Source: a virus
Length of the DNA stretch: 29,317 nucleotides
Direction: 5' to 3' (one strand)
Virus record (IMG/VR): IMGVR_UViG_3300028925_005018
Location: 1 to 29,317 of that record
Positions 6,314 to 20,910 of the stretch are shown here, piece after piece (within the stretch, counting starts at the first letter, position 1; each line of letters starts with the position of its first letter). Below the pieces are notes generated by a model. It saw only the letters and a program-made list of their open reading frames with translations, had not been told where the DNA came from and made no database searches. A program made the translations under genes and the position numbers.

Positions 6314-6464
6314 TCTCGTAACGCTCCTTATTATTAACTATAAAGCCTCGCTTTTCAGCTTGCCTCCATATAAATTTAATAAAATCATCTATATCTTTTT
6401 GAGGTGTGTCTTCTCCTCTTTCTATGTATATAGATTCCATCTCTTCTACCATTTTAAATTTCAT
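6243..6464 (-). CDS. Hypothetical protein, 73 residues
   Basis: A protein of 73 residues starting in an ATGA overlap with the methyltransferase stop (6461-6464), with GGAG nine bases upstream. The first 48 residues are balanced and helical (DTPQKDIDDFIKFIWRQAEKRGF). The last 25 overlap the next frame and look compositionally poorer (Arg/Asn/Gly-rich). Possibly a small accessory of the methyltransferase by position; function unknown. Confidence 0.65.
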   Translation of the reverse strand: MKFKMVEEMESIYIERGEDTPQKDIDDFIKFIWRQAEKRGFIVNNKERYENEGRELDRNRRGNVQLNGMGEGT

Positions 6465-7561
6465 AAATAAATGCTCCTTATTACTTCAGAAACTACATTA
6501 GTTGTTACTGCATTACCAAGACATTTATACCTTTGAGTATCAGATAATCCCTCAGTCCATCCGTCTGGAAACCCTTGTAATCTCTCGCATTCTACAGGAG
6601 TTAGTCTTCTTATATTAGACCCTTGCAATGTGTGTTGTTGCATACCAGTATCTAGTGTCTGAGCTACTGCCCTACCTACTCTACCTCGCCTGGTTTTAGA
6701 ACTAGGAACAGATAGATTAATACTATCTCCCTCTTGAGCTATAGCATAGCCTGTCTTGGTAGCTTCTTTAACTTTAACTTTAAGTAAATCCATATCACTA
6801 TGATTTCCTCCGCTATGACCTCCACCACATAAAGTTGATGCTTGCTTTTGATTTCTTTTTTCTTTTCCATCTTTAGATATTATTTTATATAAACCTGTTT
6901 TTGCTCCCACTCCTCCACCTACAGCTTTTATCGTAGTTGATAAACCATCTTGATCATAGACACGATATCCCATAGATTTATTCTTAGTTAACTCTTTTAG
7001 TCTACTTTTTTCACTATCTTCTTCAGAGATTTTTCCGAGAGGAAATATTTTTTCTCTACTTCCTCCTCTAAGATGTCCGACAAGATAGATTCTTTCCCTA
7101 TTTTGAGGGACTCCGAAGTTCTTACTATTAAGTAGCTCCCATTGCACCATATACCCAACGTCGGAGAGAACCCTAAGGATTGTCTGGAAAGTCCTTCCAG
7201 AGTCATGAGAAAATAAACCTCGTACATTTTCGAGTATAAAATGTCTGGGTTTTTTGTGGCTGAGAATCCGTGCGATATCAAAAAATAGAGTACCTCTCGT
7301 CTCTCTAAATCCGAGTCTTTTTCCAGCAATGCTGAAAGCTTGACAAGGAAATCCTCCAACGAGGAGGTCGAAGTCGGGAAGTTCTCTCTCATTAATGTTT
7401 GTTGCGTCTCCATAGTTATTAACACCTTTAAAATTCCTTTCATATATTTGTGTTGCGTACTTATCTATTTCCGAATAGCCTACAAATTCAGCATTCGGAA
7501 TAGTATTTTTTATTCCTAGCTCAAATCCTCCTATACCAGAGAACATTGAGAATACCTTCAT
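6461..7561 (-). CDS. dcm: DNA (cytosine-5-)-methyltransferase
   Basis: A protein of 366 residues carrying the ordered C5-methyltransferase motifs. Motif I is FSGIGGFELG (7-16, AdoMet binding). Motif IV is GGFPCQAFS (69-77), with catalytic Cys73. Motif VI is ENVRG (111-115) and motif VIII is QNRERIY (153-159). A variable target-recognition region follows (about 190-310), then RRLTPVECERLQGFPDGW and motif X GNAVTTNV. It transfers methyl from AdoMet to carbon 5 of cytosine in double-stranded DNA. No restriction endonuclease lies beside it, so it is an orphan enzyme that probably protects phage DNA from host restriction. GGAG lies seven bases before ATG. The target site cannot be read from the sequence. 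Confidence 0.95.
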   Translation of the reverse strand: MKVFSMFSGIGGFELGIKNTIPNAEFVGYSEIDKYATQIYERNFKGVNNYGDATNINERELPDFDLLVGGFPCQAFSIAGKRLGFRETRGTLFFDIARILSHKKPRHFILENVRGLFSHDSGRTFQTILRVLSDVGYMVQWELLNSKNFGVPQNRERIYLVGHLRGGSREKIFPLGKISEEDSEKSRLKELTKNKSMGYRVYDQDGLSTTIKAVGGGVGAKTGLYKIISKDGKEKRNQKQASTLCGGGHSGGNHSDMDLLKVKVKEATKTGYAIAQEGDSINLSVPSSKTRRGRVGRAVAQTLDTGMQQHTLQGSNIRRLTPVECERLQGFPDGWTEGLSDTQRYKCLGNAVTTNVVSEVIRSIYL

Positions 7562-11513: not shown

Positions 11514-12767
11514 CTATACGAGATACTCTAGTACTCTATAGTCCTCAGCTTTCTCTAAGTTATAGAACTTATTCATTCTCTTGTCTACATAGTCCTTAAC
11601 ATCTTTATCTAATCTTAAGAACTTAAAGAACTCATTGTAAGTAAGGTCTCTCTCTGTGATTGTACTAATTATTGCACTACTTTCATCAGTAGATTGATAA
11701 CATATCCTTATCCCTGTATCTACTATAGCTGTACATATCTTAATCCAATTTAGTATCTTATCTTGATTGATAGTTCCAGAGTGATATCTAAACTCTACAG
11801 AGCCATTGATTATTCTAGAATGCATATTCATACCACAATATCTAGAATCATTGTATTTCTCCATAGATGGACTTACATCCCAAGAGTTGTACCAAGCTTC
11901 TATAAAATCATCATTAGATTCTATTGCTAATATATCTGGTCTAGACATAGGTATTCTTCTACACCATCTACCATTATCTCTAGAAGGTGGTAACATCTTA
12001 TAGATAACATCTTGAACAGACTTACCTAGTAATAGAATGTGCTTAAGTTGCCTCCAATCACAATCTCTAGCATCTATATGTACGTGCAACCCACAACTTC
12101 TATTAATAGAAAAACTATTATCAAGATAGCTAGTTAGATTACTTACCTTATTATAAAGGTCATCTCCATTGCTAGGTGTCCTCATTACCCACTCTACACC
12201 ACTACCATTATTCCCTCTCTCTATACTACCATCGTGAACTGGTCTAAACTCATTTGGGTGATTAGACCCATCTTCTGTCTCCCAAAAGTCCCAGTTATTT
12301 GTAATTGTCTCTACTTCTAAACCTACTAACCTCATAGATTCGATAATATTATTAGACTTAGAATCTTCTCCCATATTTCTATTAGAGTAACTATCTAAGT
12401 CTACATCATTATCAGGGAAACAATTCTCACAATAGTAGTTATCATCATTATCGTTAAGCCTTATATCCTCTCTATTAACTTCGTCATCACATCCATCGCA
12501 CGATACGTATGTTTCGTAGTAACAATCTTCACAGTAATTACATCCGTTACTATCCAAGCGATGATACTCTGAATCAAACCACATAGTATGACCACAATCC
12601 TCGCAATGAACTATAGTCTCATAGCATTCGCTACATAGAATATCATTCGTATCTCCCTCTACTTCTATATCCGTAAAATAGTTATTATCAGCTACATCTT
12701 TACTACATACAGAACATTCTAATAACTCTACTTCTTCTACGGGTTTACTTTTGTCTTTTGTATCCAT
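11514..12767 (-). CDS. Zinc-finger amidoligase (Amidoligase_2 / glutamine-synthetase-like COOH-NH2 ligase)
   Basis: A protein of 417 residues. Residues 1-120 hold repeated CxxC knuckles (C18/21, C45/48, C55/58, C79/82, C90/93, C113/116), forming about three zinc-binding units. The catalytic domain follows: G-L-E-V-E-T (149-154), V-H-D-G-S (177-181), E192 in V-E-W-V-M-R-T-P, C-G-L-H-V-H-I-D (225-232) and S-V-E-F-R-Y-H (323-329). These match the metal, ATP and substrate residues of the Amidoligase_2 family, which joins a carboxylate to an amine using ATP. AGGAGG precedes ATG 12767. It is the third gene of an operon with a class II glutamine amidotransferase, the association reported for this family. 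The substrate is unknown: a peptide, cell-wall or protein side chain. Confidence 0.88.
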   Translation of the reverse strand: MDTKDKSKPVEEVELLECSVCSKDVADNNYFTDIEVEGDTNDILCSECYETIVHCEDCGHTMWFDSEYHRLDSNGCNYCEDCYYETYVSCDGCDDEVNREDIRLNDNDDNYYCENCFPDNDVDLDSYSNRNMGEDSKSNNIIESMRLVGLEVETITNNWDFWETEDGSNHPNEFRPVHDGSIERGNNGSGVEWVMRTPSNGDDLYNKVSNLTSYLDNSFSINRSCGLHVHIDARDCDWRQLKHILLLGKSVQDVIYKMLPPSRDNGRWCRRIPMSRPDILAIESNDDFIEAWYNSWDVSPSMEKYNDSRYCGMNMHSRIINGSVEFRYHSGTINQDKILNWIKICTAIVDTGIRICYQSTDESSAIISTITERDLTYNEFFKFLRLDKDVKDYVDKRMNKFYNLEKAEDYRVLEYLV

Positions 12768-12775
12768 ATATCCTC

Positions 12776-13096
12776 CTAAGCTATTGCGTAGTTAGCAGTT
12801 ATCATATAGAAAGCCATATAGTTTATCTCTCTAAGCCAACCTATTCTTTTAAGAGTTTTATATATACTCTCTGGCTCTATAGAATCTACTATTATACCTT
12901 CCTGTTCTTCTATCTGTCTAGCTATATAACTAAGGTAAGATTCAAATGAATCTGTATCTACAAAAGGATTATTCTTAGCTTTCTTATAGAGCTTCTTCAT
13001 TACATATAACTTTGACTTTATACGTATTGGATTATCTATACCAATTACTATAGCTGATCGCTTCTTCTTAGATGAAACAAGTTTGTCTATCATCAT
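12776..13096 (-). CDS. Conserved-context hypothetical protein between amidotransferase and amidoligase
   Basis: A protein of 106 residues beginning MMIDKLVSSKKKRSAIVIGI. Its start overlaps the amidotransferase 3' end by 29 bases and its stop lies nine bases from the amidoligase ATG, so the three are one transcription unit. It is basic at the N-terminus and mainly helical (KLYVMKKLYKKAKNN; SYLSYIARQIEEQEG), with a hydrophobic end (NYMAFYMITANYAIA). No motif is recognised. Its fixed place between the two enzymes makes it a candidate partner, carrier or substrate. Confidence 0.7.
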   Translation of the reverse strand: MMIDKLVSSKKKRSAIVIGIDNPIRIKSKLYVMKKLYKKAKNNPFVDTDSFESYLSYIARQIEEQEGIIVDSIEPESIYKTLKRIGWLREINYMAFYMITANYAIA

Positions 13097-14210
13097 TCGT
13101 ATCTCCTTTCTTTTTATTCTTAGATATAGATGTGGTAGCTAAGTCGTAGTCATAGCAAGACTTACATATATAGTACCCACTAGTCTTGATAGCGTCATCA
13201 GCCCAGTCTCCACAATAAGAACACTCTATACCATCTTCCCATTGTTTTTTATTTATGTTACTCTTTACTATGTATTCACAGTCAAAACATACATACTGTA
13301 GATTGTCTGCATCGTAGACTAAATCGTACCACTCTGTAGGCTTGCAGCAAACATCGCAGTCTCTACTCTTAGTATCTATATCAGAATTAACACCGAAGCT
13401 CTGGTCGAAACTAAACTCTCCTCTACCAAATCCGTAGTGATTATAGCTTCTCTCCATTACATAGTTAGATGCTATTGTATTAGTTTCATATGACTTCTTA
13501 TCAAAGTTCATCTTTCCATTAAACTTACTAGTATCTATAGTATATAGAGTATCATTAGATACCTCGTATATTTTCATAGATATTTTTGTACCTTTAATAG
13601 ATTCCTCTAAGATGTCTTTTTGAGAGGCATAGAGTAAGACTCTAGCTTCTTTCCAATATCCGAAATAACAAGGTCTACCAGATTCCTTTAGTAGATGTAA
13701 TATATCTTTATTACTTCTATTCCAGGCTAATGCGTAGTCTCCGTATATTTCATCTAGACATTCTTGAAGGTTATTATTGGAATTAAATAGAGCGAATATA
13801 GCTTGAGAGTCTACCTTGTAAACTTCTTTCTTATTTACAGAGATATCCTCGTGGTTATGAATTACTCCATTATGAGTTCCAATTACAGATCCGATGTGGA
13901 AAGGGTGAGCGTTTTCTAGAGATATATTTCCGTGTGTCTTATACCTTGTATGTCCTAAGACTACAGATGTCTCTGGAGTAAGCTCTGCTATGATTTTATT
14001 CCAATCTCTATGCTTGACAAGATTACTTGACTTTTTTAGAGATTTAAATATCATAGGGTTCTTACCACTACTAATAAAAGCAAGTCCTGTAGAGTGTTCA
14101 CCTCTAACTACAGATAATGCAGTTAGCTTGGTTAATACTCTCTTTAATTGCTTAGATTGGTAATCTGTCTGTGCGTGTTTCTGTTTGGCTATGCCAAATA
14201 TTCCACACAT
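13068..14210 (-). CDS. Class II glutamine amidotransferase with C-terminal zinc ribbons
   Basis: A protein of 380 residues. It begins M-C-G-I-F-G-I-A, with Cys2 as the N-terminal nucleophile. The glutaminase signatures follow: G-H-T-R-Y (86-90, Arg89), A-H-P-F-H near 101-105, T-H-N-G-V-I-H-N (112-119) and Y-G-D-Y-A-L-A-W (156-163). It hydrolyses glutamine to glutamate and ammonia. The sugar isomerase, synthetase or phosphoribosyl domains that usually follow are absent. Instead residues ~285-352 carry two four-cysteine ribbons (C285/288, C308/311; C330/333, C349/352), echoing the zinc knuckles of the amidoligase two genes downstream. It probably feeds ammonia to, or acts as transferase with, that ligase. 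Confidence 0.9.
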   Translation of the reverse strand: MCGIFGIAKQKHAQTDYQSKQLKRVLTKLTALSVVRGEHSTGLAFISSGKNPMIFKSLKKSSNLVKHRDWNKIIAELTPETSVVLGHTRYKTHGNISLENAHPFHIGSVIGTHNGVIHNHEDISVNKKEVYKVDSQAIFALFNSNNNLQECLDEIYGDYALAWNRSNKDILHLLKESGRPCYFGYWKEARVLLYASQKDILEESIKGTKISMKIYEVSNDTLYTIDTSKFNGKMNFDKKSYETNTIASNYVMERSYNHYGFGRGEFSFDQSFGVNSDIDTKSRDCDVCCKPTEWYDLVYDADNLQYVCFDCEYIVKSNINKKQWEDGIECSYCGDWADDAIKTSGYYICKSCYDYDLATTSISKNKKKGDTNDDRQTCFI

Positions 14211-14254: not shown

Positions 14255-14671
14255 CTATGTCCAATAATATTCTAGGTTATTAGGTTCACTCCAACCATAC
14301 CTTGAATAGAACGTAAAGTCCTTTCTAAGTAGGTTGCTTCTATGTGATGCGTGTAGCTTTTCTTTTCCTAGCCAATGTGGCATCTCTACGTTCTCCGAGA
14401 CTCCTACCATTTCCATAGTATTATTATAGCCTCTGAGAATCCATTCCTCTATCATTTTATTCTTATAGAGGAGCAGAGCCTCTTCGTAGCCTTTCCACAT
14501 AGTTACAGCAGGATGATTTAGCCACCCTTTATAGCTCTTACCTGTTTTCGTAGGCACTCCAGATAGAGCGTTAAATATTTGTAGAGCTTCTACTCTTTGT
14601 TTACCTAAACGTCTATAGTCTAATGATTGTGCAGAGAGAGTAAAGTCTTTGTAGGGTAAAAATGTTTGCAT
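14255..14671 (-). CDS. MSMEG_6728-like protein (pyrimidine-dimer glycosylase-type fold)
   Basis: A protein of 138 residues. It matches the MSMEG_6728/DUF family pattern: MQTFLPYKDF-x-SAQSLDYRRLGKQR at the N-terminus, V-E-A-L-Q-I-F, W-L-N-H-P-A-V-x-M-W-K-G-Y-E-E-A-L (~51-67) and E-W-x-x-R-G-Y (~75-82). Members are often annotated as pyrimidine-dimer DNA glycosylase-like by distant similarity to T4 endonuclease V, and occur in phages and actinobacteria; biochemical proof is scarce. The second residue here is Gln, not the Thr nucleophile of endonuclease V. DNA repair or damage tolerance is the likely role. It lies directly upstream of the amidotransferase operon. Confidence 0.8.
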   Translation of the reverse strand: MQTFLPYKDFTLSAQSLDYRRLGKQRVEALQIFNALSGVPTKTGKSYKGWLNHPAVTMWKGYEEALLLYKNKMIEEWILRGYNNTMEMVGVSENVEMPHWLGKEKLHASHRSNLLRKDFTFYSRYGWSEPNNLEYYWT

Positions 14672-20351: not shown

Positions 20352-20563
20352 TGAAAAAAGTTAATTTTAATTTAGAAATAGAAGTTCACAAGGATTTAAA
20401 AGATGAAATCTTAAAAGACTATGTCTCTAGTTATCTTATAAATCAAGAAACATTTGATGATTTTAGATTAAACATTATTGGAGGAAAAAACTATCCTGAA
20501 AATTTTGAGATAGGTTCTATCAAGTTTGATTTAAAAAAGAAAAAAGCAAAAGCTAAAAAATGA
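20351..20563 (+). CDS. Hypothetical protein, 70 residues
   Basis: A protein of 70 residues with GGAG six bases before its TAATG-coupled start. It alternates strands and helices (KVNFNLEIEVHKDLKDEILKD; DDFRLNIIGG; FEIGSIKFDL) and ends in a poly-basic tail (KKKKAKAKK). Its last codon overlaps the next ATG. Function unknown. Confidence 0.7.
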   Translation: MKKVNFNLEIEVHKDLKDEILKDYVSSYLINQETFDDFRLNIIGGKNYPENFEIGSIKFDLKKKKAKAKK

Positions 20564-20910
20564 AGTTAGCTGTATATGGAACATTGAGAAGTGGGAATGA
20601 AAATACAGGTATATTAGAAAACTCTTCATTGGTTTACCCAGGGCATCATACTTTTCCAGCAGTGATTCAGAATAATAATGGCTCTGGAACTGTAGTAGAG
20701 GTGCATACTGTAGATAAAGAAGACTTAGCTAGGTATGATATCTATGAGGGTGTTGATTCTGGTCTTTATAGGCGAGTAAAGGCGGATATTAAAATGGATA
20801 GTGGAGAAACAGAGAATGTTTGGGTGTATGTAGCTGGAGACGAATTGATGCAAAGAAGCAATTCTTTTAAAGTAATTCAAAGTGGAGATTGGTACAATAG
20901 AAAATTTTAA
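20560..20910 (+). CDS. Gamma-glutamylcyclotransferase-like protein (GGCT/AIG2 fold)
   Basis: A protein of 116 residues. It opens with M-K-L-A-V-Y-G-T-L-R-S-G, the family's substrate-binding YGTLR loop. It has L-A-R-Y-D-I-Y-E-G at ~57-65 holding the catalytic glutamate, followed by L-Y-R-R at ~70-73. These are the core signatures of GGCT/GGACT/AIG2 enzymes, which cyclise gamma-glutamyl groups to 5-oxoproline and release the amine or amino acid. It sits between small unknown genes and terL. Phage copies are known, but their substrates are not. Because an amidoligase and a glutaminase are encoded on the other strand, a link through gamma-glutamyl amides is attractive but inferred. Confidence 0.85.
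   Translation: MKLAVYGTLRSGNENTGILENSSLVYPGHHTFPAVIQNNNGSGTVVEVHTVDKEDLARYDIYEGVDSGLYRRVKADIKMDSGETENVWVYVAGDELMQRSNSFKVIQSGDWYNRKF

Follow-up and report, generated by a model that had tools for sequence, protein, structure and literature searches.

A zinc-ribbon variant of the phage amidoligase cassette with a small conserved partner gene, proposed as a glutamine-dependent amide-forming complex

Gene cassettes that combine an amidoligase, a glutamine amidotransferase (GAT) and a gamma-glutamyl cyclotransferase (GGCT), plus ATP-grasp and PF14395 ligase genes, have been described in LUZ24/PaP3, phiEco32 and RIO-1-like phages, and the role proposed for them is a peptidoglycan change that blocks superinfection (PMC5498523, PMC10580990, PMC3890496). 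One account defines a seven-gene "peptidoglycan modification cassette" that includes a gamma-glutamyl amidoligase, a second amidoligase, an ATP-grasp protein, a GGCT and a GAT, reports it from RIO-1-like podoviruses, phiEco32, 7-11, PA11, tf, LUZ24 and PaP3, and hypothesizes that it prevents superinfection (PMC5498523). The sources cited for the podovirus cassette are Iyer 2009 and Hardies 2013, as cited by PMC5498523 and PMC10580990. Mass spectrometry of a PEG-concentrated stock of phage SU10 picked up the products of its GAT, ATP-grasp and YtfP/GGCT genes (PMC4281155). The literature searched on phage amidoligase cassettes contained predictions only, and no experimental work, including biochemistry of any member, was found there.

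Peptidoglycan mDAP is amidated by AsnB/LtsA-type amidotransferases, in which, as predicted for the locus described here, a class II glutaminase feeds an ATP-dependent carboxylate-amidating site; that site lies in a fused asparagine-synthetase domain, whereas the present locus encodes a separate ligase of glutamine-synthetase (GS) fold. The MurT-GatD peptidoglycan amidation system consists of a Mur-ligase synthetase and a class I-type glutaminase, and with its class II GAT and GS-fold ligase our locus does not belong to that type.

The window analysed here is a stretch of 29,317 nucleotides, positions 1 to 29,317 of IMG/VR record IMGVR_UViG_3300028925_005018. With GenBank phages matching its terminase at only ~25%, no host is assigned. 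Three tightly joined minus-strand genes (11514-14210) encode GAT, a 106-residue protein (SML) and an amidoligase (AMD, or AMD-S where it must be told from its larger paralogue AMD-L). The features referred to below are as follows.

11514 to 12767, minus strand: AMD (AMD-S), 417 aa, amidoligase (PF12224, E=1.7e-20)
12765 to 12785, minus strand: Shine-Dalgarno sequence of AMD, overlapping the SML stop codon (TAGGAGGATATATG), read from sequence
12776 to 13096, minus strand: SML, 106 aa, four predicted helices, no known family
13090 to 13130, minus strand: Shine-Dalgarno sequence of SML (AAAGGAGAT), within the GAT 3' end and ahead of the SML start, read from sequence
13068 to 14210, minus strand: GAT, 380 aa, class II glutaminase (Pfam GATase_6, E=1.7e-12; PHROG 4736, 2e-36)
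14255 to 14671, minus strand: pyrimidine-dimer DNA glycosylase-like (PDG) gene directly upstream of GAT (PF03013, 3e-23)
20560 to 20910, plus strand: GGCT, AIG2-like gamma-glutamyl cyclotransferase (PF06094, 3.3e-15)

The GAT and SML reading frames share 29 bp, a gap of 8 bp separates SML from AMD, and a Shine-Dalgarno-like sequence lies 5' of each of the three starts. The PDG gene, which adjoins the cassette in many relatives too, is probably a neighbour outside the pathway. A C5-cytosine DNA methylase gene (6461-7561; PF00145, 1.8e-86) lies on the same strand as the cassette.

GAT comprises a stand-alone class II (Ntn) glutaminase (residues 1 to ~230) and two C-terminal zinc ribbons (~285-352). 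It displays Met-Cys2, VRG36-37, GHTRYKTHG (86-94), NAHPF, THNG (112-115) and VDS (133-135), its profile matches the glutaminase domain of GlmS in the PDB (1xff, E=1.5e-9), and C2, R36, H87, R89, N114, G115 and D134 are invariant in 53/53 aligned GAT sequences. Judged by its N-terminal Cys nucleophile and glutamine-binding residues, it is a class II glutamine amidotransferase, with predicted glutaminase activity. The two CxxC...CxxC ribbons (C285/288/308/311 and C330/333/349/352) are kept to different degrees, ribbon 1 in 53/53 relatives and ribbon 2 in 31/53. Pfam identified no synthetase domain in GAT, the C-terminus consisting of zinc ribbons only.

AMD consists of three tandem LIM-like zinc units (~18-116) and an Amidoligase_2, or GS-fold carboxylate-amine ligase, domain (~139-408) that scores well above the curated PF12224 cut-off (74.4 bits vs 22) and contains GLEVET, DGS, CGLHVHID and EFRYH. 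The residues E151, E153, E192, H228, H230, E325 and R327 are invariant in 52/52 AMD-S and 34/34 AMD-L sequences. In an AF2 model (pLDDT 80), residues ~139-408 adopt the GS/gamma-glutamyl ligase fold, with the top match to 1tt4 (Z 13.0), followed by YbdK (1r8g; Z 12.8, 221 residues aligned, rmsd 3.5), plant glutamate-cysteine ligase (2gwc; Z 11.8) and GmaS (Z 11.3); by these residues and the modelled fold, AMD is an Amidoligase_2 enzyme with a predicted GS/GCS-type catalytic site. It shares the GS-like catalytic fold and the E..E..HxH..ExR residues with YbdK, GmaS and glutamate-cysteine ligases, which differ in being small-molecule enzymes without zinc arrays or a dedicated glutaminase. The earlier note, made from sequence inspection, had proposed a catalytically intact glutaminase/amidoligase pair bearing two zinc ribbons on GAT and about three N-terminal zinc units on AMD, without the usual acceptor domains; its coordinates and motifs for all three genes proved correct on re-analysis, its zinc units correspond to the CxxC pairs present and its missing acceptor domains to the Pfam result, and the loss of catalytic residues that it regarded as fatal to its reading occurred in none of the aligned relatives, an invariance that speaks against a chance pattern.

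The zinc array of AMD is formed by six CxxC pairs (C18-C116), whose cysteines are kept in 50-52/52 AMD-S for units two and three and in 47/52 for unit one. The region resembles LIM modules (LMO2, E=0.018); Pfam LIM gave no match in the window AMD, the best relative, from Omnitrophica, reached 20.5 bits, just below the cut-off of 22.9, and the array departs from the canonical LIM signature and spacing, with an inter-finger spacer of 7 residues. The zinc units of GAT resemble those of AMD (hhalign E=1e-4), a modest similarity that may reflect convergence of short Cys-rich modules; both enzymes do carry zinc modules, and docking on one partner, as suggested earlier, draws modest support from their likeness. 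A 176-kb viral contig (L032, 6927-8288) encodes a similar C-terminal array fused to an unrelated N-terminal protein, an arrangement that points to a mobile docking module.

SML is modelled by AF2 with a mean pLDDT of 72, its N-terminus being conserved yet modelled without confidence. Alignments of 12 and 46 sequences reveal the conserved motifs VGI-x2-PI(R/K)-x(R/K)(S/T)K, (L/M)YxxAKxNPF and a C-terminal I-T-A/T-N. Searches returned no Pfam family, no convincing PHROG match and no sequence relative in the PDB, and the best Foldseek match (E 1.8) was not usable. SML was absent from 50,697 GenBank phage records and was not found in 84,980 prokaryote genomes (one genome per species), and its profile did not match the GATs of other phages as an internal domain. 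It was seen in viral contigs only, always accompanying the cassette, and the 46 distinct sequences (window included) show that this partner, assigned to no Pfam, PHROG or PDB family, is conserved. A membrane anchor was considered and rejected: some relatives have a hydrophobic C-terminal helix, but just 3/46 reach a KD of 1.6. A weak lead is gp41 of Bacillus phage 031MP004 (L015, 4782-5006), a 74-aa protein encoded next after that phage's amidoligase, which matches part of the helical region of the SML profile at 12.2 bits, where 20 shuffles gave no more than 8.0.

SML-seeded searches of IMG/VR returned 5 and later 18 loci, and amidoligase-seeded searches enlarged the set. At 18/18 SML-seeded loci, SML is flanked immediately upstream by GAT and immediately downstream by AMD. 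The GAT-SML-AMD cassette was found in 56 viral contigs besides the window (57 records in all), and the three genes thus do co-occur elsewhere, contrary to the survey outcome that the earlier note named as refuting it. A full four-gene cassette, AMD-L - GAT - SML - AMD-S, is present in 39/56 contigs; another 16, close to the window, have no AMD-L upstream of GAT, as in the window, and the last (L075) ends before GAT. AMD-L is a second, larger zinc-ribbon amidoligase (~460-680 aa where complete) with an extra N-terminal region, exemplified by L028 (4576-6453) and L030 (4617-6323) and present in 37 further contigs. A viral contig (L099, 1665-9164) has four tandem amidoligase-like ORFs, then a GAT and a fifth amidoligase.

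A search of 19 whole cassette-bearing records with PF12224 found one gene each in the window and in 9/10 relatives from its lineage. Records of the other group had two; the pattern is broken by two long records with two cassettes each. The records of L020/L105 (80,282 bp) and of L060/L067 (63,940 bp) each contain a pair of distinct cassettes and a pair of GGCT genes; each may be a fusion of two phage genomes. In the ligase tree, AMD-S (support 0.94) and AMD-L (0.89) form separate clades, and the window lineage is nested among AMD-S from genomes carrying both ligases; on the simplest reading, AMD-L was therefore secondarily lost in the window lineage. A GGCT gene occurs in 36/44 cassette-bearing records, which are possible fragments, so its absence from the remaining eight may be real or apparent; in the window it lies outside the operon, on the strand opposite to the cassette. 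The three-gene extent initially proposed describes the window operon correctly and missed both GGCT (20560-20910) and the AMD-L of the full cassette. Pairwise-distance correlations range from 0.62 to 0.87 among cassette genes and from 0.31 to 0.64 between cassette genes and PDG (kinship not corrected); those within the cassette are mostly higher, as expected of a module.

GAT and AMD each have hundreds of distant phage relatives. These are adjacent in LUZ24-like PaP3, Alcaligenes phage QDWS535, Arthrobacter phage Salgado and Proteus phage Privateer, and lie within a few genes of each other in Vibrio phage IME271. Candidatus Omnitrophica contigs encode a zinc-ribbon AMD followed by a zinc-ribbon GAT (L117, 7947-10218; L118, 392-2735; L119, 5279-7563). 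Like the window cassette, these pairs join an AMD with three or more zinc units to a GAT, here with one zinc ribbon, and keep all catalytic residues; unlike it, they have the order AMD-GAT, lack SML and, in L117, lie in a cluster of conjugation genes that includes those for a T4SS coupling protein, RadC and TraC/TraG-like ATPases. Given this setting, the zinc-ribbon AMD-GAT pair also rides on conjugative elements.

The window cassette resembles the RIO-1/phiEco32/LUZ24-PaP3 cassette in that a PF12224 amidoligase neighbours a class II GAT (SML intervening in this variant), and also in its AIG2/GGCT gene, the frequent presence of two ligases and its early/replication region. The LUZ24-like order is parallel: ligase - hypothetical - amidoligase - GAT - ATP-grasp - GGCT (PMC3890496). 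The differences are these: (i) three LIM-like zinc units on the amidoligase and SML between GAT and AMD are additions, (ii) the full AMD-L version has two PF12224 paralogues, whereas the second ligase of the RIO-1/LUZ24 type belongs to another family, (iii) GGCT is on the opposite strand, (iv) sequence identity is only ~25-31%, and (v) neither a RimK-type ATP-grasp nor a PF14395 ligase was detected. For the RimK-like PF08443, 0/44 cassette-bearing records were positive (controls, 13/14), as were 0/30 for PF13535, the records being fragments and the result strong only as a pattern; the PF14395 COOH-NH2 ligase was found in 0/44 records and in 4/5 known phages used as positive controls. Because these two enzymes are absent, the pathway cannot be identical to that of the known cassettes; with GAT, PF12224 and GGCT shared, the window cassette may be taken to work like the podovirus cassettes without being filed as a member. 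The Arthrobacter phage Salgado set (L012) likewise has a PF12224 amidoligase then GAT, an adjacent GGCT and no PF14395 ligase, and differs in that neither enzyme has CxxC modules and SML is missing. The description of the locus as an undescribed modification system, offered in the earlier note, could not be maintained, since cassettes of amidoligase, GAT and GGCT had already been described (PMC5498523, PMC10580990, PMC3890496).

Gene order, conservation, fold, residue integrity and co-occurrence are established, and on them we base proposals for activity, complex and substrate. The enzyme class is probably that of a glutamine-dependent carboxylate-amide ligase; that the operon encodes an amide-forming complex of this kind, with an envelope peptide as first guess for its target, is the reading towards which we lean. 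GAT would hydrolyse glutamine to release ammonia, and at the GS/gamma-GCS-type site of AMD, as its fold and invariant residues suggest, ATP would activate a carboxylate for coupling to ammonia or an amine. The LIM-like arrays of AMD and the zinc ribbons of GAT, with the helical SML between, would join the enzymes or tether both to a common partner, and zinc modules and SML would together replace the fused synthetase domains of classical amidotransferases; the assembly role of SML is suggested by gene position alone. GGCT may remove or edit gamma-glutamyl products. The targeted carboxylate would belong to a host peptide, our first choice being one of the envelope, such as the stem peptide of peptidoglycan, a best guess borrowed from literature on other phages; the cassette would then act in the way proposed for peptidoglycan modification by the LUZ24, phiEco32 and RIO-1-like phage cassettes. 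The invariant GAT and AMD catalytic residues, the AMD fold, strict synteny (18/18), correlated distances, the GGCT gene (36/44), the parallel LUZ24-like gene order and the likeness of the zinc units to each other and to LIM modules support such a complex, while the position of GGCT outside the operon and the absence of ATP-grasp and the PF14395 ligase count against it.

The same enzymes could instead serve gamma-glutamyl small-molecule metabolism, with AMD making gamma-glutamyl-amines from GAT-released glutamate in the manner of GmaS/YbdK and GGCT recycling them as 5-oxoproline, thus supplying nitrogen or redox capacity during infection without polymer change. The best structural neighbours of AMD are indeed small-molecule gamma-glutamyl ligases (YbdK, GmaS, plant GCL) and GGCT accompanies the cassette, but zinc docking arrays that are large and conserved, a dedicated partner protein and a pair of paralogous ligases are atypical of such enzymes, and GGCT lies outside the operon; we consider this possible though rather unlikely. 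LIM-like arrays are usually protein-binding, and the complex might amidate or gamma-glutamylate a host or virion protein selected by its zinc arrays, as the match of the AMD array to LIM folds (20.5 bits to Pfam LIM in a relative) and the similar array on an unrelated protein in L032 would allow. Against it, the SU10 GAT, GGCT and ATP-grasp were seen solely in a PEG-precipitated sample not purified on CsCl, for which reason they cannot be counted as virion-associated (PMC4281155); modification of proteins appears unlikely to us. More doubtful still is a role for SML as the acceptor itself, whether substrate or carrier: made on the ribosome, it would be amidated or conjugated at its C-terminus, which is conserved and almost constant in length, by zinc-docked AMD enzymes using GAT ammonia. 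If true, this would be a peptide-tagging or amino-carrier system specific to phages, with two ligases serving each carrier.

Hypermodifications of phage DNA can contain amide bonds, zinc ribbons can bind nucleic acid and the window encodes a C5-cytosine methylase, so that the ligase might place amide or glutamyl groups on a modified pyrimidine of phage DNA; PF00303, the thymidylate-synthase-type base hydroxymethylase, was nevertheless found in 0/30 cassette-bearing records (fragments; control genomes positive), and we judge this very improbable. We give as little credence to the idea that mobile elements carry the cassette as a simple module for anti-defence or entry exclusion, one that inactivates a defence signal or receptor and leaves the cell wall unaltered. 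The related Zn-AMD/Zn-GAT pair among Omnitrophica conjugation genes fits such a role and implies a benefit that is not phage-specific, but the Omnitrophica copies are without SML and no link to defence was found in the literature searched.

Predictions that phage amidoligase cassettes alter host envelopes or proteins go back to 2009, according to later papers, and no reported test was found in the literature searched. New here, as far as found, is a zinc-ribbon, SML-containing variant of the cassette. With three genes in the window, 57 viral records, intact active sites and a small protein exclusive to the cassette, this compact set provides a minimal, clonable means to learn what such cassettes modify. 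The related zinc-ribbon pair on conjugative elements suggests that the chemistry benefits mobile elements generally.
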